Shown here: one piece after another, positions 1 to 8,209 of the stretch
How the letters are laid out: each line of letters opens with the position of its first letter
Position numbering within the stretch: the first letter of the stretch is position 1
Translations under genes and position numbers: made by a program
Source of the DNA: Synergistaceae bacterium
GTDB taxonomy: Bacteria; Synergistota; Synergistia; Synergistales; Synergistaceae
Assembly (NCBI GenBank): GCA_012513245.1
Contig: JAAZCN010000225.1
Location: forward strand, 1 to 8,209
Direction of reading: 5' to 3'
DNA: 8,209 nucleotides
Notes under the pieces: generated by a model
Told to the model about the DNA's origin: nothing
Database searches by the model: none
Seen by the model: only the letters and a program-made list of their open reading frames with translations

Positions 1-977
1 GCACTGTCGTACTTACTAACCCACGCCCGATCCATGCGACGTTTGGTGAGCATCGTTCCACAGTGCAAACATGGAAATTCATCTCTGACTTTTCCCGTTT
101 TCTTGTCCACTGCAGCATTCCAGAAAATGACCTCGCGTGTACATTCTGGACAGACAAAAACATCCGACCATACTGTATATTTTATCTTGCCCTTGCTTCT
201 GCCATCAGTGTGGAGTGTCTCATACATCCAACCGCATTCAATTTCCACTTCTTCCAGGATGCGCTTTGCTTCCCGCTCAAAGGCCTGCACATCTACTGGG
301 GTGTTGTAGTTATAAGCGATGAAAGTGGCCGCAGGAGATAGATCATTAAGCACGGCACGGCGTAAGCCGAGCTTTGAAAACGGCTTCCAAATCGTCTTAC
401 CGTTCTCGTCTGTCTCCTGCTGGGAGATCGTGCCGTTTTTGTCGACTCGATAGCCAAGAGACTCTACCACAGTCCTGTCGCCACACATCTGTGCCGCAAC
501 ACCAGTCATACCCGTTCCACAGAATCCGTCGAATACGACATCCCCAGGCTCCGTGTAGTGCAGTATGTACCGCATGATTGCCTTGTGCGGGACCTTGGTG
601 TGATAGGAGTGGGCGTTGTAGATCGGTTCGTTCTTGCCCTCGCTCACATCCGCGGCGAACGGCTCGCGGCTATATGGCTTGTTCGGATCGTAGGGCGTGC
701 CATACTGCTTGATGAAGTCACTAATGAACGGGTTTGGGCATGCTGTATAATACGGCGGATCTGATAAATTCAAGATATCCTCGTCTGAACCAATAGGAAA
801 ACCCTCGATTTTACGAAACTCTGGGTCCTTCAGTTTTTCGCGCAATTTATCTAGGAAGTATTCCCGTCGCTTATGGTCATTATCAAACGTTATTCCCAGG
901 CACTCTACGGGTTCCTCCATCTTGGCAGAAGAGTTAATATTAAAAAGCGATCCTTGGTTTGATGGATTATTCTTCAT
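1..977 (-). CDS. pglXI: BREX type 3 DNA methyltransferase (PglXI-like), N-terminal part, cut by window edge
   Basis: The first 325 codons are visible and open; the 3' end lies outside the window. Seen: a DPPYY catalytic motif (motif IV) at residues 73-77, then an SAM-binding motif I, FDGFCGTGMTG, at 149-159. Motif IV before motif I is the permuted order of beta-class amino-methyltransferases. A zinc-ribbon-like pair, CPEC (276-279) and CLHC (303-306), follows. The start at 977 has an AAGGAG site six bases upstream that overlaps the brxC stop, so translation is probably coupled; Met20 is a weaker alternative. In type 3 BREX the methylase follows brxC, as here, and marks host DNA as self, probably as N6-methyladenine by analogy with other BREX systems. 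Family assignment rests on motifs and gene order; the N6 versus N4 product is not visible. A stand-alone modification methylase is the alternative. Confidence 0.85.
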   Translation of the reverse strand, partial: MKNNPSNQGSLFNINSSAKMEEPVECLGITFDNDHKRREYFLDKLREKLKDPEFRKIEGFPIGSDEDILNLSDPPYYTACPNPFISDFIKQYGTPYDPNKPYSREPFAADVSEGKNEPIYNAHSYHTKVPHKAIMRYILHYTEPGDVVFDGFCGTGMTGVAAQMCGDRTVVESLGYRVDKNGTISQQETDENGKTIWKPFSKLGLRRAVLNDLSPAATFIAYNYNTPVDVQAFEREAKRILEEVEIECGWMYETLHTDGRSKGKIKYTVWSDVFVCPECTREVIFWNAAVDKKTGKVRDEFPCLHCGTMLTKRRMDRAWVSKYDS

Positions 978-987
978 CTTTCTCTCC

Positions 988-3900
988 TTATTCAAGAACG
1001 ATCCGAACTTTGTCGGGTTCTTTGCCCTTAGTAAGCATGTCCAGGTATTCCTCAAACCGCTTCCTCATCTCCGACATGGTGGCCGGTGAGCCGCCCGCGA
1101 GAAGAGCCTCACGCAGTTCCACAATTTTGACCGGAACCTTGGTGAGCCCGGAGAGCACCTCTTGCAAAGCTCGGATGAAGTTCTGGTCAAGTTCGTCCGG
1201 CAGTGTACGCTTCTTGATGAAGCCATCCACCAGCTTGCGCTGTTCGGGTTTGAGCAGATTCATGTTCTCCTTGGTGGTCGGGTCTTCGAGGTTGGCAAGT
1301 AGTGTCTGAACCCAGTTTTCAACCAACTTATCCAGCTCACAGTCCAGGACCTCGAGCATCGTAGCTGCGTGAGCCGTGGGCGGTTCCGCGACCGGTTTGA
1401 AGTTGCAGTGCGGGCAGACCGGCGAAGCCTCCAATTCCTGCTCTGTAAGTGCAAAGCAGCTCTTCAATCCGGCGAGCCGGTTCTGGAAATCCGAGAGGTG
1501 CTGGCGCGGCATCAGTTCGATTGTGGAGAGCTTCTGCAGGTCCTTGAGCCGTTCGTCGCCCATGAGCTGGGCCTTGTGCTTGTCTTCGTTCACGCCGAGA
1601 CGTGCTTTGGCGTGCATGGAAAGGTAGACCAGCAGGTAGGTCTTCTTGAGGTCGCTGAGCTTACGCTGAGTCTGCTGGCGGAATGCCACCACACTCCGCT
1701 TGGTCGGGTCACATATCTGGGCAAGAATTTGATCTCGTGCTGTTTTTATCTCGTCGATCCACTCGTGACCTGTGGGCAGAACCGCCTCGGCGGTGGAGAG
1801 GTACGAGGCCGTGGACCCGAAATCGACAACCAACTCCTCCAGCAACTCAATCTCGGCAAGGGATTCTAGCCCACTACGCTGAGTGGTCACTTCCGAGGCG
1901 TCATAGCGAAAGTTTTTGAGCTTGCCAGTTGTTGTATAGGCTTGCATGGATTCAAGGAAGGTCTTGGTTTCGTCCAGCTTCGCACGGAACTTATTGCTTT
2001 CATCCTCGGTCAACAGGCTACGGCCCCAGAAGAACAATCCGGTCTGCATGCTCTGCTGCACCAGCACCAACCGTTCGACAGAGTTGATAACGGCCTTCTG
2101 TAACTCTTGAACCGGTTCGTCTTTGCCCTGGGTAACCAGTTGCGCCATGCCAGGCGTGAGTCCGAGCAGTTCAAAAAGTGCCTTGAGCGCCGGAAGGTTC
2201 CAATCCTTAGGACGTTCGATGTGTTTAAACTGAGTTAATTCCTCTATCCTGGTACCAGCCAATTGCACTAGGTTAGTGGCATCAAACTTATTTCCCGGAA
2301 TGGAAAGTACAATTTCACCAGCATAAACCAACACAGCCATCAGCACCATAGCCCATTCAGGTTCTAGTCGTAATGATTCTGGAGCTAAGTACTCTACACC
2401 AAGTACATCCTTAATCAACTCGGAGCGATTAAGCACTTGTCCTTGTCCTTTAAGCTTCGCTATGTTGAGGATATACTTAATGTACTTAGAACGATAAGGG
2501 TCATGTCGGTCTCCATCAAGAAGCTCCAACGCATCCAATACTGCAACAGCCTGCTTCGTACGGTTTAGTCCAGCAATTGCGCGAAGGGCATCTTGTGCAG
2601 CCTGTGCTCGGTTCGCGCCCGTGATAAGCACCGAAAAGAACGGATACTCAGGAGCCTGGTCCTGGAACGTCGTTCCTAGACAGATGCCCCCAATGGTGTT
2701 TATCAAATCACGGAAGTTTATGCGTTCGTGGGAGCTGATTCCGGAAAGTTCTCGTATAGACTTGCCTTTTACCCATTCGGCCAGAGGCTTTGTTCGTCCT
2801 TGGTAAGATACATCGAACGCAATAGTCATGTTCTTCTGAAGCCACTCTACAAGATTGCGTAGGGAAATCAATGACTTGGATTCGTATGTGGATTTAGCAT
2901 GACCGGAAGCTGTTGAGGCAAGATCCAGTGCTGCGGCGTAGCTTTTAAGCGATGTGCGGAACTCTTCGTCAATGTTAGTGATGCGAAAGAAGAGTTCTTC
3001 TGGTTTTTTTTCGTCCTTAAAATGCGGCGCATCAAAAGGCTGAATAAAATAAATATAAAAGTCCCTTGGCGGGACAGCAGTAGAGCGTTCGTTAGGCGCT
3101 CCGAAGAAAAGGTATCCCTGGCGCGCAGCTTTGTGCTCTAACCACTCAATCTCGTGCTGCCAAATCTTATAGCCTGTTACATATGTCTGATCGGTACATT
3201 CCATGACACGTCGAAGCGCCTCGTAATAATAGCGATCGAGTTGTGAGGAATCGAGACACTCTGCCCGCCTCTCAATGAGTGCGTCGTAATCATCAGTCTT
3301 TTTAAGGTCTAGGTAATATTGGTGATTGTCTGAATTTGACGAAATGAACTGGCCGCTGACTGTCCTAATGATTTCACGAAGAACTGTCTCAACCTGAGAG
3401 AGCAAATCGTCGGCTGGATCTCCGCCAAGCTCCTCGATACCCGGCTGGAAAAGGCACAATCCATCCCGAAGTTCTTCTGGTGTTGCACCCAAGGGAGCAT
3501 AAATGTCTCCAGTTGTTAGTCTGTGAACGGAGAGTGCGTGAATGAGCTGTGTCGCCATTGGTCTGTATGCCGGTCTGGTAAAGGCCTGCTGTATACGAGA
3601 TTCAAGTACCATACTGCAATCGATTACCGCTTTGATGTCAGGAACAGCTCTGAAGGAAGGGTTCTCACGCAACGTGGTCCAGTAAACGTCATAGGAAATA
3701 ATGCCAGGGTGGTCCTCTGGTAAATTTTTATCAATAAGTTTCTTTATGGACAGTGAAATGGTCTTGAGAACCTCGCGTTTTTCTACCGCTGTTACCCGTT
3801 CGAAGGTGTCTATATAGTCTGGATGTACTGGGAAGAGATTTACAAATTCATCCATACGCTCATTCATGTGACCATAATACTTAGCAAAAGGAGTCAAGTA
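988..3900 (-). pseudogene. brxC: BrxC/PglY, C-terminal 970 codons, cut off by an in-frame stop
   Basis: This is the continuation, in the same frame, of the ATPase fragment at 3901-4716. Only the TAA at 3901-3903 separates them, and together they make a 1242-codon gene, in the size range of BrxC/PglY (DUF6079) proteins. It opens with a conserved-looking stretch around [19 protein letters not shown] that fits directly onto the end of the ATPase domain. The rest is mostly helical, with one CPHC metal-binding-like pair near the C terminus, and it ends at a TAA ten bases before the methyltransferase start. No separate start is convincing: TTG at 3897 and ATG at 3867 both lack a good ribosome binding site. 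Base composition is uneven: sampled 60-base stretches give about 62% GC at 1081-1140 but 30% at 3001-3060. Without bypass of the stop this part is probably untranslated or poorly translated. Confidence 0.88.
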
Positions 3901-4716
3901 TTACCTGATTTTCAGCTGGTGTTCAGCTGTCTTCTTGAGCAGTCGTTCGGCTACTACGAACTTAACGTCTCTACGGGCAATGAGGATTTGTTCGAAGCGG
4001 TCCTTCACCCGGCGGATGCTGTCGGCCACAAAAGAAAAACGGGGGCTGTCAAAAATAGCTTCCTGAACACCTGCGATGAAGCGAAAACGCAGGTCTTTGC
4101 AAACCTCACCGACTTCGCGCAGGAAGTTAAGATCAAGAATGAGTTCCTGGTCCTTGCGTGTCCGCAGGTAGTCTAGCAATTCATCTACTACTAATAGCAG
4201 GCCGTGATCTGGAAACTCTTTATGGAATGCGGTCATCAAATCTTCAAATGACCTTTTGTTGTTGGACACCTTGTCTGCAGATGGGAAAGTATACGATACA
4301 CCCATCACAGACAGGTGCTCCTCTAGTTCGGCCACTAGAATATCACGCAGGGACATAGTCGTAGATCCTATTTCAGTTCTAATAACCTTGAACTGCCCAC
4401 TGATACTGGCGGCGGCATTTGCCACGCTTTTGTCATTCAAGTATTTCACAAGATCCCCGTTTTCAGCTAGTGCAGAAATAACGGACATGAGGTGCGATTT
4501 ACCGGTACCGTAGTTGCCAACTACCAAAAGCCCCTTGTTGTCCATAGGCTGGTCAAACTGAAGCTGAGGAATGACTATGCTGACCAACTTCTCGGCCATC
4601 TCCGAGGAAATCACGTAGGTTTTGACAAGTTGTTGGGCAACGGTAGCCTCATCTGCTGTACGTAGCTGAATTACGGATTCGATAGGTTCAAATTGGATCA
4701 GGTCACAGTATTTCAT
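3901..4716 (-). CDS. brxC: BrxC/PglY, N-terminal ATPase part (271 aa) ending at a premature TAA
   Basis: BrxC (PglY in the Pgl system) is the large P-loop ATPase of BREX, essential for defence in the systems studied. Seen: Walker [10 protein letters not shown] at residues 67-75, Walker B LLLVVDE at 173-179, and a [12 protein letters not shown] stretch (216-227) of the sensor type. The N terminus and these motifs match the DUF6079/BrxC family as I know it. The start at 4716 has an AGGAGG site nine bases upstream; the ATG at 4721 runs into a stop at once. The gene follows brxF after 25 bases, as in type 3 BREX. Codon 272 is TAA, and the frame continues openly in the downstream entry. The product as read is the ATPase domain without the other roughly 970 residues, so it is unlikely to work as BrxC, though it might still bind ATP. 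Confidence 0.9.
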
Positions 4717-4746: not shown

Positions 4747-5223
4747 TCATGCAACAACCACTGTGTTCACTACTAGGAAATCTTGTAATGGGTATCTTTT
4801 GTATTCTGGGTGATCCGGCTCTGCATAGGCTATATACTCGCGGTCGACTAAGCCGCTCCACGACGCAACCAGAGTTTTGTTTCGCGAAATACCTTGCAGT
4901 AGACGTAACGGGTCCTGCTTGAGCGAGAGATCGAAAAGTATTTCAATGTTATCTAGCAGAACCACTTCGACTGCTGGTGCATCCAAAATCTCAAAAAGGA
5001 TACGCTGTAACTGCAAAGCACGTTGGCGCTCCGTAAGATCAAGCAAACGCTTGGAAAGATTCAAATTAACGTTTATTAAAGGGGCAGACGTACGTGCATG
5101 GATATCCTGCATCAGAGAAGTCTTTCCCGTACCGGGCGGCCCCACCAAAACAACAAGGCGATAGTACAGTTTGGCAGCATGGTCAATATTCTCTAGGACC
5201 ATGTCGATCAGTTGTTCAGTCAT
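4747..5223 (-). CDS. brxF: BREX-3 P-loop protein BrxF
   Basis: This 158-residue AAA-type ATPase is a marker of type 3 BREX; its exact biochemical role is unknown. Seen: Walker A GPPGTGKT at residues 28-35, a central helix signature LSKRLLDLTERQRALQLQR (56-74), Walker B VVLLDNIEIL (87-96) with Asp91, then SLKQDPLRLLQGISRN (100-115) and HPEYKRYPLQDFLVV (138-152). These blocks match BrxF proteins as I remember them. Asn92 stands where many AAA proteins have the catalytic Glu. I chose the ATG at 5223 because the product then has normal family length and the start overlaps the end of the HTH gene by 8 bp, a typical coupled arrangement. An upstream in-frame extension to 5316 would lie within the HTH gene and adds no recognisable domain. 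A nearby AGGG, or an AGGAAG further up, could serve as ribosome binding site. The gene is intact. Confidence 0.92.
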   Translation of the reverse strand: MTEQLIDMVLENIDHAAKLYYRLVVLVGPPGTGKTSLMQDIHARTSAPLINVNLNLSKRLLDLTERQRALQLQRILFEILDAPAVEVVLLDNIEILFDLSLKQDPLRLLQGISRNKTLVASWSGLVDREYIAYAEPDHPEYKRYPLQDFLVVNTVVVA

Positions 5224-5431
5224 TTCCCTGTTTTCTTCCTGAGCCTGGTTGGTGTGCTCGCGTTTCATCAAGCCAATCGTCAATAGTTTTTTTGCGGAAA
5301 CGCCAGTGCCGGCCAATTTTTTGGGAGGGGATCTTACCTTCTCTAACTAGCTTGTAAAGCGTAGATTTGGGTATTTTAAGGTAGGTGGTCAACTCTTCGA
5401 TGGTCAGGACGTCATTTAGTTTTTCATCCAT
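5216..5431 (-). CDS. small excisionase/MerR-type helix-turn-helix DNA-binding protein, probable BREX operon regulator
   Basis: The 71-residue product is almost entirely one helix-turn-helix domain of the excisionase (HTH_17) type: LTIEELTTYLKIPKSTLYKL, followed by VREGKIPSQKIGRHWRF and DDWLDE. Such proteins bind DNA and act as small regulators or as recombination directionality factors. As first gene of the operon, overlapping brxF by 8 bp, it is most likely a regulator of the BREX genes; a plausible site is the inverted repeat at 5499-5529. I chose the ATG at 5431 because GGGGTG lies six bases upstream and the domain begins soon after. An in-frame ATG at 5482 would add 17 residues but lacks a ribosome binding site and would leave almost no room after the predicted promoter. 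An excisionase role is possible, but no integrase is visible. The link to regulation is inference. Confidence 0.85.
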   Translation of the reverse strand: MDEKLNDVLTIEELTTYLKIPKSTLYKLVREGKIPSQKIGRHWRFRKKTIDDWLDETRAHQPGSGRKQGND

Positions 5432-5437
5432 CAAGCG

Positions 5438-5443
5438 CACCCC
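5438..5443 (-). promoter_or_regulatory. ribosome binding site that decides the HTH gene start
   Basis: GGGGTG on the minus strand sits six bases before the ATG at 5431. It is the only reasonable Shine-Dalgarno match near either candidate start, so it favours the 71-residue form of the HTH protein. Confidence 0.55.
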
Positions 5444-5447
5444 TAAT

Positions 5448-5478
5448 GGTATTAAGGCTGAGATCACCTTAGAATACC
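5448..5478 (-). promoter_or_regulatory. leader hairpin upstream of the HTH-brxF-brxC operon
   Basis: In the minus-strand leader, GGTATT pairs with AATACC (6 bp) and AAGG with CCTT (4 bp), with a two-base CT bulge on the 5' side and a nine-base loop. The hairpin would begin roughly ten bases after the predicted transcription start and end four bases before the ribosome binding site at 5443. It could stabilise the mRNA, tune translation, or act as a DNA-level operator. No poly-U tract follows, so it is not an intrinsic terminator. Pairing is by eye only. Confidence 0.4.
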
Positions 5479-5493
5479 TCATATTTTATAGAT

Positions 5494-5522
5494 AATTTAC
5501 AGTTATTGACAGTTGCTGTCAA
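5494..5522 (-). promoter_or_regulatory. candidate sigma-A promoter of the BREX operon
   Basis: On the minus strand a perfect TTGACA (-35) lies at 5522-5517, followed by 17 bases and TAAATT (-10, four of six consensus bases) at 5499-5494. Transcription would start near 5487, giving a leader of about 56 bases before the HTH gene. The -35 box and the whole spacer fall inside the perfect inverted repeat, so a protein bound there should block RNA polymerase. Confidence 0.5.
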
Positions 5523-5529
5523 TAACTGT
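5499..5529. repeat. perfect 31-bp inverted repeat (14-bp arms, 3-bp centre), probable operator
   Basis: The arms ACAGTTATTGACAG (5499-5512) and CTGTCAATAACTGT (5516-5529) are exact reverse complements around TTG. Each arm carries a TTGACA reading outwards past the centre. The site covers the -35 box and spacer of the presumed BREX promoter. Neither strand has a T-run right after it, which argues against a terminator. A regulator binding site is the best reading; a recombination site is a weaker alternative. I saw no second copy in the window. Confidence 0.75.
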
Positions 5530-5587
5530 TTGTTAAACGGTTATCTTTTATTTATCGGTGGATATATCGTGTGTGTACAATCCGGGA

Positions 5588-5770
5588 TCATTTGGAAGCC
5601 ACAGAAGACCAGAGTGGCAACCTACACAATTGACAAATCAGGAATTCCCCGAGTTTTTTCAGTTTTTTTTCCCGTTGACCTTCGACTTCCATATCCACTT
5701 CAAATTTTCTGATCGGTGTCCCAATCATACAAATATATCCATTGCTTTCAATTATGAAGGTCTGACGCAT
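5588..5770 (-). CDS. small hypothetical protein downstream of the DUF932 gene
   Basis: This 60-residue ORF starts 13 bases after the DUF932 stop, on the same strand, so it may be the last gene of that transcript. The product begins MRQTFIIESNGYICMIG, has a strongly charged middle (KFEVDMEVEGQREKK) and ends LCRLPLWSSVASK, including a CQLC pair. I do not recognise it. The ribosome binding site is weak (GAAG about ten bases upstream), and a TTG just before the ATG is an alternative start. A second ATG overlapping the DUF932 stop (ATGA) opens only a five-codon frame. It may be a real small gene, a remnant or chance. Confidence 0.38.
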   Translation of the reverse strand: MRQTFIIESNGYICMIGTPIRKFEVDMEVEGQREKKLKKLGEFLICQLCRLPLWSSVASK

Positions 5771-5783
5771 CAAGGGTTCTTCT

Positions 5784-6803
5784 TCATTTTACCAACTTTT
5801 CTGCTTCTCTGAAGGCCCTGTATCTTAAATCAGCGCCGGAGCCAAACCAGAGAGAGTCAAGTTTATCATTCCGATAATTGCGATAATGGTCAATGTATTC
5901 CGTCATGGCGTTATATCCTGCCCAAACCGTGCCTCTTACGTTCTGGATTTCCTGACCGGTTCCTGCATCAAAAAGCTGTCTGATAAGGTCCCATCTTTTC
6001 GCTCTCTGCAAATCCTTTTCTTTTAGTAAATCAAGGTCTATTCTGTTCCCATACCATACTTTAGTAAAATAACCTTCAAATTCTGTATCCGTCATTTTTG
6101 TTCTTGCAAACTTCTTGAAAAGCTGGATACTGTCATTGAATTTGAGAGTCGTTGTATTGACAAGGTCCTTCGCAAATTCCATCTGTTCTATAATTCCGTT
6201 CGTGTGCTTGATAGTGATTGCCTGACCTTTTCGCTCATTACTTGAGTTTCCACTTAATGCTGCGTTCAGCGTATTCATACACACTACTCTGATCGGGGTA
6301 AATTTAACAATCAACGAAAGTGATCCGTCATGCGAATTACAAAGGAGAAGATAAGACCGCACGGCATCATTCTTTAGTACTTCATCTTCCCCGAGCAACT
6401 TTGCCAGAACCCACACTTTTTGACCATTTCTCAGACTGCCGCCGGCTTCAAGCGTAGCCTGTTTGTTCTTAAGAAGGAAATCAAACCACTGGAACGCCTC
6501 AATATTCTGCACAGGTTGGTAATTTGCTCCAACAATTCCAAGGACACTATTGTCAGTCTCTCGTACGATGGCTTTATGTGTTGTAATTTTAGAGGTATTT
6601 ATAGCACTTTTTTTAATACCTTCAATATTATTCTTGTTAAACTCCTGTTCCATGTCCACATATACAGGTTTTTCAATAACTTTCCAGTTAGTCCCGCTAG
6701 CCACTAATGCTTCTTCAACTGTCGGCGGTTCTTTAAGGACCACGCCTAAATTATGCCAGGCTGGTTTATTAGTAAAAAATCCTGATTCAAATTCGTGTGC
6801 CAT
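5784..6803 (-). CDS. DUF932 domain protein (phage/plasmid-related protein, TIGR03299-like)
   Basis: The 339-residue product resembles the DUF932 family found on plasmids, in phages and in mobile islands; its molecular function is not established. Seen: an N terminus MAHEFESGFFTNKPAWHNLG typical of the family, the block VLGIVGANYQPVQNIEAFQWF about 90 residues in, a middle RVVCMNTLNAALSG, and a C-terminal SLWFGSGADLRYRAFREA. I chose the ATG at 6803 because AGGAGG lies eight bases upstream and the family motif begins at that Met; an upstream in-frame ATG at 6842 has no such site. No signal peptide or membrane segment is visible, so the protein is probably cytoplasmic. The gene is full-length for its family and unbroken, unlike brxC and the upstream nuclease gene. 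It lies between two defence-type genes, but a part in defence is not shown. Confidence 0.87.
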   Translation of the reverse strand: MAHEFESGFFTNKPAWHNLGVVLKEPPTVEEALVASGTNWKVIEKPVYVDMEQEFNKNNIEGIKKSAINTSKITTHKAIVRETDNSVLGIVGANYQPVQNIEAFQWFDFLLKNKQATLEAGGSLRNGQKVWVLAKLLGEDEVLKNDAVRSYLLLCNSHDGSLSLIVKFTPIRVVCMNTLNAALSGNSSNERKGQAITIKHTNGIIEQMEFAKDLVNTTTLKFNDSIQLFKKFARTKMTDTEFEGYFTKVWYGNRIDLDLLKEKDLQRAKRWDLIRQLFDAGTGQEIQNVRGTVWAGYNAMTEYIDHYRNYRNDKLDSLWFGSGADLRYRAFREAEKLVK

Positions 6804-6878
6804 TACTATTTCCTCCTCTCGATTTATGGTTATAGTTTCCATATCCTTCAGAGATAGTAGTTGTTTGTATCTTTAAAG

Positions 6879-6887
6879 ATTATCACA
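6879..6887 (-). promoter_or_regulatory. possible extended -10 promoter element for the DUF932 gene
   Basis: TGTGATAAT on the minus strand resembles an extended -10 element (TG, one base, then GATAAT, five of six consensus bases). No good -35 box lies 16-18 bases upstream. A perfect 12-bp palindrome, ATCTTTAAAGAT (6869-6880), overlaps its downstream edge and could be an operator. The whole call is tentative. Confidence 0.3.
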
Positions 6888-6993
6888 CTAAAGCGACAGC
6901 TTAAATGCGAAGTATAAGATTCTAAAAACATTTTCACATATGATAAATTCTTACTCAGTATTTCATTGTAGTTATCACACAGAATTGCTCAAT

Positions 6994-7007
6994 CTAGAAA
7001 GTTCTAG
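6994..7007. repeat. short inverted repeat between the nuclease and DUF932 genes
   Basis: CTAGAA and TTCTAG are exact reverse complements around AG. No T-run follows on the minus strand, so it does not look like a terminator for the upstream gene. The rest of the 257-base gap (6804-7060) is AT-rich with no supportable gene. A 14-bp repeat of this kind could be a small operator or chance. Confidence 0.25.
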
Positions 7008-7060
7008 TAAGGTTTTCTTGCTCCGGTTCTCTATCTTTAACCCTAAATAAAAAGTTACTA

Positions 7061-7483
7061 TTAAATCTCAATCATATAATATTTTCTGTTGCTATCTAGT
7101 GATTGCCATTCAAATTGATAATCCCCTATCAATTCGATACATTCATCATCTTTTGTTTCACCGGTAGGCTTATATATTTTGCCGAATAACCGGAATTCTT
7201 TTCTAAAATACTTGTATATAGATGTGATGTTGTCTCCACGATAGAAAGGCCGGTCAGATACAAGAACTAAGGAATAAGTTCTATTGAATCCCAAATGTTT
7301 CAGTTCTTCCATAAACTTAAGATCCTTTACAAAAGCATACATCTGCTCTGGGTACTGTCCATTCAACGGGCACTTAAGTTCTACTGCATATTTTTCTTTA
7401 CCATCCTGTGAGAATACAACGATATCTATTTCTTTTTTTACAGTATGTTTTTGATTGAAGAAATAAGAAACGTTTCGTTCGAA
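7061..7483 (-). pseudogene. PDDEXK nuclease-like domain, C-terminal part after an in-frame TAG
   Basis: Read in the same frame as the ORF at 7484-7930, these 140 codons complete a 289-codon gene. They hold the core of a PDDEXK (restriction-endonuclease-like) fold: EIDIVVF with Asp169 and, after a hairpin, YAVELKCP with Glu184 and Lys186 as the E-x-K pair (numbering of the full frame). The conserved-looking stretch NGQYPEQMYAFVKDLKFMEE and a C-terminal EWQSLDSNRKYYMIEI follow. The frame ends with three stops in a row, TAA TAG TAA (7063-7055). The first in-window start codon is a TTG at 7366, beyond the active-site motif and without a ribosome binding site, so this part is probably not made alone. 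The PDDEXK call comes from motif spacing and is not proven; substrate is unknown. Confidence 0.65.
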
Positions 7484-7930
7484 CTATACCTTATAAGAGG
7501 GCAGCATGTTTCTGAGATAGACACCTAGTTTGTGCTGGAGGCTAAATTCGTTATATATTTCTATATTATTTATACGCACTTTAACAAAAAAATGCTCAAT
7601 TAAAGCTTTTAAATCGATATTACGAGAAACTATATTATTTACTTCTTCCGCATTGTTACGCTGGTATTTCTCAGAGATATCTCCTGACAAGATGCTTGTG
7701 TTCGTCTCTGATGGCTCCTGGAAATTCCCTTCAAAAACCAGATAATTTTTTATAATTCCATCTGACTTAGAAGTCCTTTTTATGATCCCTTGCTTCTCTA
7801 GCAGCGACCTGCATATTATATTGACAGGCTGTTGTTTTGCCCCTATTCCCATAATAATTTTCGTCAATTCCATATCAGACAGGCCCTGCTGTCGTGAAAG
7901 TGTTTCTATAATGTCATCTCTTTTGGACAT
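7484..7930 (-). CDS. winged-helix N-terminal part (148 aa) of a wHTH-PDDEXK protein, ending at a premature TAG
   Basis: Residues 1-65 look like a winged helix-turn-helix: an initial helix (DDIIETLSRQQ), LSDMELTKIIMG, a recognition-helix-like VNIICRSLLEKQGIIKR, and a wing ending KNYLVFEG. A variable linker (70-100) follows, then the first helix of the nuclease-like domain, with Glu128 in YNEFSLQHKLGVYLR as the usual N-terminal acidic residue. Codon 149 is TAG, and the frame then continues with the active-site strands. The start at 7930 has a strong AGGAGG seven bases upstream. As read, the product can bind DNA at most and lacks the catalytic Asp and E-x-K. I do not know a named family; the intact form would be a DNA-binding nuclease, perhaps a restriction-type defence protein. 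The truncated form could act as a repressor, which is speculation. Confidence 0.7.
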   Translation of the reverse strand: MSKRDDIIETLSRQQGLSDMELTKIIMGIGAKQQPVNIICRSLLEKQGIIKRTSKSDGIIKNYLVFEGNFQEPSETNTSILSGDISEKYQRNNAEEVNNIVSRNIDLKALIEHFFVKVRINNIEIYNEFSLQHKLGVYLRNMLPSYKV

Positions 7931-8209
7931 GGTTTAACCTCCTCAGAATTGTATCTATCAAAAAATAGATCCATTGCTGTGAATTGTTTAAATCTGGACT
8001 CTATGAGCCTTATGTCCTTTGAAATGTTTAATTTTTGCTAAAATTTGTGGATGGCTACTAAACTGTTTTCGGACAATTACTGCAGGTTCTTTTTAAGTTT
8101 TTATCGATCAAGAGCTTGTGATAAATAGTGAAATATGAAAAAACAGCATCATAAGAAACTATTACTATATAAATAAACACAATCGTATCACAAATCTGAA
8201 AAAATGGTA
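7931..8209. other. AT-rich upstream region of the wHTH-nuclease gene; no gene seen
   Basis: No supportable ORF lies here. Closest to the gene is AGGAGG (7943-7938), then a weak inverted repeat ATCTAT/ATAGAT with a six-base loop (7953-7970) that could be an operator or a 5' leader hairpin. A weak promoter match, TTGTGA (8193-8188), 18 bases, TATAGT (8169-8164) on the minus strand, would give a leader of over 200 bases, so a nearer promoter may exist. The promoter match is low confidence in such AT-rich DNA. Confidence 0.35.

Follow-up and report, generated by a model that had tools for sequence, protein, structure and literature searches.

How did a stop codon come to interrupt the brxC gene of a Synergistaceae bacterium, and what would it mean for the BREX system to which the gene belongs? 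We examined this in the window, that is, the whole 8,209-nucleotide stretch of contig JAAZCN010000225.1 that was analyzed (Table 1). On the minus strand, brxC runs from 4716 to 988 as 271 codons, a TAA at codon 272 (3903..3901), and a further 970 codons in the same frame, which end at the natural terminator, also TAA, at 990..988. The translation bears out the original prediction of a single in-frame TAA followed by 970 open codons. The assignment to brxC was likewise sound, as Pfam PF19557.5 (DUF6079) and PADLOC PDLC02482 (BrxC) match both pieces end to end: residues 1-271 align with positions 1-271 of each profile, and the remainder with 273-1238 of 1238 and 273-1231 of 1231, respectively. 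Because both frames fit one profile, which unrelated frames would not, they represent one gene with one altered codon. The claim that there is no frameshift, insertion or deletion also holds, with both profiles continuous apart from codon 272; as the break neither removes nor adds a residue, it reflects a substitution, not an indel. BrxC is described as one polypeptide of 1200-1300 residues in the excerpts available from PMC12839542, and the present frame ends after 271 residues.

The break had been placed exactly after the ATPase domain, which is wrong. The N-terminal part of BrxC has an ORC/Cdc6-type AAA+ fold, and in an AlphaFold2 model of residues 1-440 of L001, the unbroken relative described below, DSSP puts residue 272 within a helix predicted for the AAA+ lid at residues 264-277 (pLDDT 90 for the block 261-270 and 88 for 271-280). 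The 5' piece contains the AAA+ core with the motifs that we take to be Walker A (GNYGTGKS) and Walker B-like (LLLVVDE), together with the first part of the lid. By the domain order given in papers, the 3' piece carries the rest of the lid, the wHTH and the C-terminal regions. A search of solved structures by sequence gave no useful match.

Table 1. Features in and around the interrupted brxC, in window coordinates.
Feature	Coordinates	Strand	Evidence
In-frame TAA, brxC codon 272	3901..3903	-	Translation; sense codon in L001 and in 77/77 covering loci
brxC 5' piece, 271 codons + TAA	3901..4716	-	PF19557.5, 480.7 bits, profile 1-271; PADLOC BrxC 1-271
brxC 3' piece, 970 open codons + natural TAA	988..3900	-	PF19557.5, 1366.2 bits; PADLOC 273-1231
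Predicted lid helix cut by the stop, codons 264-277	3886..3927	-	DSSP of AlphaFold2 model, L001 residues 1-440
Presumed Walker A, GNYGTGKS, residues 67-74	4495..4518	-	Translation; columns invariant in 39-row alignment
Presumed Walker B-like, LLLVVDE, residues 173-179	4180..4200	-	Translation
Candidate weak restart: AGG (3906..3904) and in-frame TTG (3897..3895) flanking the stop	3895..3906	-	Sequence only
brxF, upstream of brxC	4747..5223	-	NF033453.1 BREX_3_BrxF, 187.6 bits (cut-off 50); inner ATG
pglXI methyltransferase, 5' part, runs off the window	3..977	-	PADLOC PDLC02541, E 2.1e-166
Small helix-turn-helix gene (HTH_17/excisionase-like) before brxF	5216..5482	-	PF12728, 66 bits

The gene lies in a minus-strand, operon-like row that comprises the helix-turn-helix gene (5482 to 5216), brxF, brxC and the start of pglXI. 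For brxF, the match to NF033453.1 begins with the ATG at position 5223 and the PADLOC BrxF match begins at residue 32 of the open frame. The pglXI frame starts with an ATG at 977, preceded by the Shine-Dalgarno-like GGAGAG, and the part inside the window covers positions 3-307 of 919 of the PADLOC PglX/PglXI profile. The presence of BrxF, of BrxC/DUF6079 (in two pieces, adjoining brxF) and of a PglXI-type methyltransferase identifies the system, as far as it is visible and on the basis of gene content, as BREX type 3. Type 3 systems have six core parts according to the excerpts available from PMC12839542. Three of these six are in the window; PglZ, the BrxHII helicase and a BrxA homologue did not turn up in the window genes that we examined and could be encoded past the window edge at position 1.

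To see what relatives encode at residue 272, we collected 84 stretches encoding a relative and kept 80 loci, 77 of which cover the codon. A sense codon stands there in all 77 (68 Glu, 4 Asp, 3 Ala, 1 Asn, 1 Ser). In a search with the C-terminal part, 118 of the 120 proteins listed (of 6489 matches, with 7999 scored) cover the position, with 108 Glu, 5 Gly, 3 Asp and 2 Ala; since protein records cannot display a stop, these inform on the residue only. A phylum survey gave a residue at 272 in 28 of 28 further loci (20 Glu, 3 Ala, 2 Asp, 1 Lys, 1 Gln, 1 Arg), these being 28 of 54 survey rows that may overlap the 80-locus set. Two separate BrxC proteins had been named as a possible normal state of the family; since codon 272 is a sense codon in every one of the 77 loci that cover it, a split is not the normal state. 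A naturally split BrxC was accordingly rejected, with 0/77 covering loci having a stop at 272 and the breaks that do occur lying elsewhere. When the N-terminal piece was searched by itself, match ends among the 120 listed of 1553 were spread from 228 to 476 and none were piled at 272: the 260-279 bin held 14 of the 120, the preceding bin 5 and the next three 16, 10 and 20, where many of these ends may be contig ends, both kinds being counted together.

Breaks in other brxC genes were then counted. Of the 80 loci, 58 were whole and unbroken, 12 ran into a contig end but showed no break, and 10 were flagged. Two of the flagged loci stand apart (a run of N at the start in L002 and an in-frame loss of 29 residues in L022), which leaves 8/80 broken in some way once contig ends and N runs are left out. 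Their lesions are a break at about codon 969 (L049), at 57 (L060) or at 110 (L065), missing codons 417-473 (L050), homology that stops at 677 (L069) or 553 (L078), the loss of 645-1108 with a stop at 1155 (L070), and a break at 131 with a stop at 467 (L074). The phylum survey covered 398 genomes and found a match in 48 of them, in 54 rows, of which 43 span at least 1150 residues and include the genome of L001 and matches down to 24% identity. A single in-frame stop was found in two of these 43 near-full-length rows (G348 and G088), and G089 begins at residue 51; among the 11 shorter rows, G311 is a piece with two stops and G020 is in pieces. Broken brxC copies are thus an ordinary minority, many of the source genomes being metagenome-assembled genomes (MAGs), where errors mimic breaks. 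A breakage hot spot was rejected; the breaks are scattered. Close parallels are L103 and L083, each with exactly one in-frame stop (TAG at codon 574 and TGA at codon 719, respectively) in an otherwise open DUF6079 brxC; because the positions differ, these stops and the one in the window are separate events.

The age of the stop can be approached through the nearest relatives. The best match in genome contigs, L001, is a 3988-base contig of a Bacillota MAG; it aligns without gaps over these 3988 bases, of which 3937 are identical. It is unbroken across codon 272 and open up to its contig end. A 1242-residue protein, P0001, is also open at 272, has 98% identity across the 970-residue part, and, counting the stop, shows 22 differences from the window. 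In both, the same gene thus has a sense codon where the window has a stop. Over codons 1-1215, the span held by L001, 49 codons differ between the window and L001: 40 silently, 8 by missense and 1 by nonsense. All possible single changes would comprise 7975 missense, 2517 silent and 443 nonsense changes. We polarized the differences by majority rule using up to 49 outgroup loci, which assigned 15 silent and 5 missense base changes plus the stop to the window side, and 12 silent and 4 missense changes to the L001 side, where one missense is the third position of a twice-differing codon; 14 silent changes were ambiguous. With the tract at codons 513-533 excluded, the window side has 11 silent changes, 4 missense changes and the stop, and the L001 side has 11 and 3, with 4 ambiguous. 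Although the numbers are small, the broken copy shows no relaxation of constraint, and missense changes are not overrepresented on its side. Because the differences are mostly silent and missense changes are not in excess, the stop is either very recent or an error. Of the origins suggested earlier, a recent mutation or a sequence error is supported as the likely one.

At 3118-3180 (codons 513-533) the differences from L001 are dense and mostly silent; this suggests a recombined tract or a mosaic assembly. A comparison of 1.7 Mb of the L001 genome with window positions 1-1070 found nothing, and with positions 5000-8209 it matched the first 59 bases only, so that the similarity in brxC does not imply a shared species.

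We consider that the locus is best explained by a recent loss-of-function substitution that altered codon 272 in a brxC gene intact elsewhere, to which we assign a probability of roughly 0.6. The observations behind it are the lesion itself, its position in the predicted fold, the unbroken relative with 99% DNA identity, and the constraint on the remaining gene; we infer that the stop is present in the living cell and not only in the consensus, and that function is lost. Some observations count against it. At three conserved sites the window carries odd residues, found in 0/119 (codon 738), 1/119 (codon 487) and 3/119 (codon 413) of the compared proteins, and these missense changes could be extra errors or the onset of decay. 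A serious rival is a sequencing or consensus error, by which the organism would have an unbroken brxC and the stop would exist in the assembled record alone. The constraint on the rest of the gene, the unbroken L001 and the lack of a missense excess would be expected under this explanation too, and the operon genes that are visible show neither a further stop nor a frameshift. Moreover, the 51 positions that differ from L001 across 3988 bases are unevenly distributed, with the cluster at codons 513-533, a pattern that a mixed-strain assembly could produce. However, there is no sign of poor quality at the site itself, and the other differences, being mostly silent, resemble strain differences and not random errors. 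Taken together, an error is a possibility to be reckoned with, though we think it unlikely.

The remaining explanations would give the interrupted gene a function or a regular role, and nothing found favors a split protein, recoding or a dedicated switch. The stop had been proposed as an on/off variant, one state of a reversible BREX switch in the population. A single-base change is revertible in principle, and the available text of PMC9122589, citing others, reports that PglX is phase-variable in the S. coelicolor type 2 system. Positive evidence for such a variant is absent here, however: the change is a base substitution, the breaks in other brxC genes are scattered and not at one switch site, and none of the repeats shown for the window (20 of the 21 families of direct repeats and 17 pairs of inverted repeats, with a length of at least 14) overlaps 3901-3903. 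Among these repeats there is thus no repeat tract, inversion or template repeat at the site, as would mark the switch site of a phase-variable gene, and we regard a switch as very improbable.

Still harder to credit is a functional two-piece BrxC, in which translation would restart at the TTG or at a later ATG and the pieces would assemble. The downstream frame is open and constrained, and four bases, AGGT, which we take to match the anti-Shine-Dalgarno sequence, stand 5 bases ahead of the in-frame TTG. Judged from the bases alone, this weak candidate restart adjoining the stop would count against loss of function. The stop nevertheless falls inside the predicted lid helix and none of the 77 covering loci is split at this codon, and the AGG and TTG are not an adaptation to the stop because both are present in the unbroken L001. 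Read-through of the TAA, or its recoding as an amino acid, would account for the frame that stays open beyond it, but the window has no tRNA gene, and recoding is also argued against because brxC itself ends with TAA at the C-terminus of the family (profile end 1238 of 1238); the chance of this is close to negligible.

Under the preferred reading, a recent loss-of-function mutation, a single base substitution would have created the stop at codon 272 of an intact brxC in a BREX type 3 operon. Translation would then terminate partway through the AAA+ lid, so that the 271-residue product would lack the remainder of the lid as well as the winged-helix domains and the C-terminal region, and BrxC function, and hence BREX, should be lost in cells with the stop allele. 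The stop would be very recent, in keeping with the lack of clear decay around it. In the excerpts available from PMC11580459, BrxC is reported as an essential component of BREX defence in Vibrio, whose N-terminal domains need ATP binding in order to interact, and those of PMC9122589 report that BrxC is needed for genome methylation in an Acinetobacter type 1 system. The 271-residue product should thus be inactive, which for type 3 would be an extrapolation, as no test of BrxC loss in a type 3 system was found in the literature excerpts available. In Salmonella, methylation requires the N-terminal part of BrxC and restriction the C-terminal part (PMC9009780), and by analogy the N-terminal fragment could retain some methylation role. 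Through polarity, an early stop in brxC might in addition reduce the expression of pglXI downstream, similar to the polarity of pglZ on brxL inferred in Salmonella in the available part of PMC9009780.

Several known cases resemble this locus in part. StySA, a BREX variant of Salmonella laboratory strains with mutated brxC and pglZ, is likewise disabled by small changes in core genes with pglX unchanged, whereas it has multiple mutations in the C-terminal part of brxC and the type 3 brxC of the window has a single early stop (excerpts of PMC9009780). The phase-variable pglX of BREX/Pgl is also a BREX core gene in broken form, but a different gene, and brxC in the window has a single substitution and no shown repeat at the site (excerpts of PMC9122589). 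Within the available portions of the literature on BREX premature stops, pseudogenes and nonsense mutations, no published report of a codon-272 brxC allele was found; the premature-stop case found there was a stop introduced into brxR. One could speculate that a low-cost BREX 'off' allele arises repeatedly by nonsense mutation of brxC, with the gene staying intact long enough to revert, which would make BREX a population-level on/off trait without a dedicated switch, but we consider this quite improbable. The interrupted brxC does not look like a new kind of gene but like an ordinary copy that broke very recently, or a sequence error. If the stop is real, it would represent a very recent loss of phage defence and not a new mechanism. 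The case mainly calls for care with profile-based calls of presence or absence, which would score this interrupted brxC as present.

Some features of the surroundings may also be recorded. The helix-turn-helix gene matches TIGR01764 with 60.6 bits (cut-off 28.8), and at 5216-5482 it also resembles MAD1 of another defence system below the cut-off (62.2 vs 80 bits). An inverted repeat with perfectly matching 14-base arms around a 3-base loop, which contains TTGACA, lies at 5499-5529, 16 bases upstream of this gene, and from its sequence looks like an operator or promoter dyad. The window contains no tRNA genes or Rfam families and gave no plasmid or phage match by megablast. Viral contigs matched neither the BrxC patterns nor a 29-base pattern around the stop, and of the five viral stretches that matched DUF932 patterns, none encoded a relative. 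Beside the operon, positions 5784-6842 hold a gene for a DUF932/TIGR03299 'phage/plasmid-like' protein, followed by two open frames (7061-7366 and 7484-7930) that matched nothing in Pfam, PADLOC or NCBIfam. The GC content is about 0.45-0.56 across the BREX genes and drops rightward to 0.32-0.41 (5500-8000), as if the operon had been acquired.
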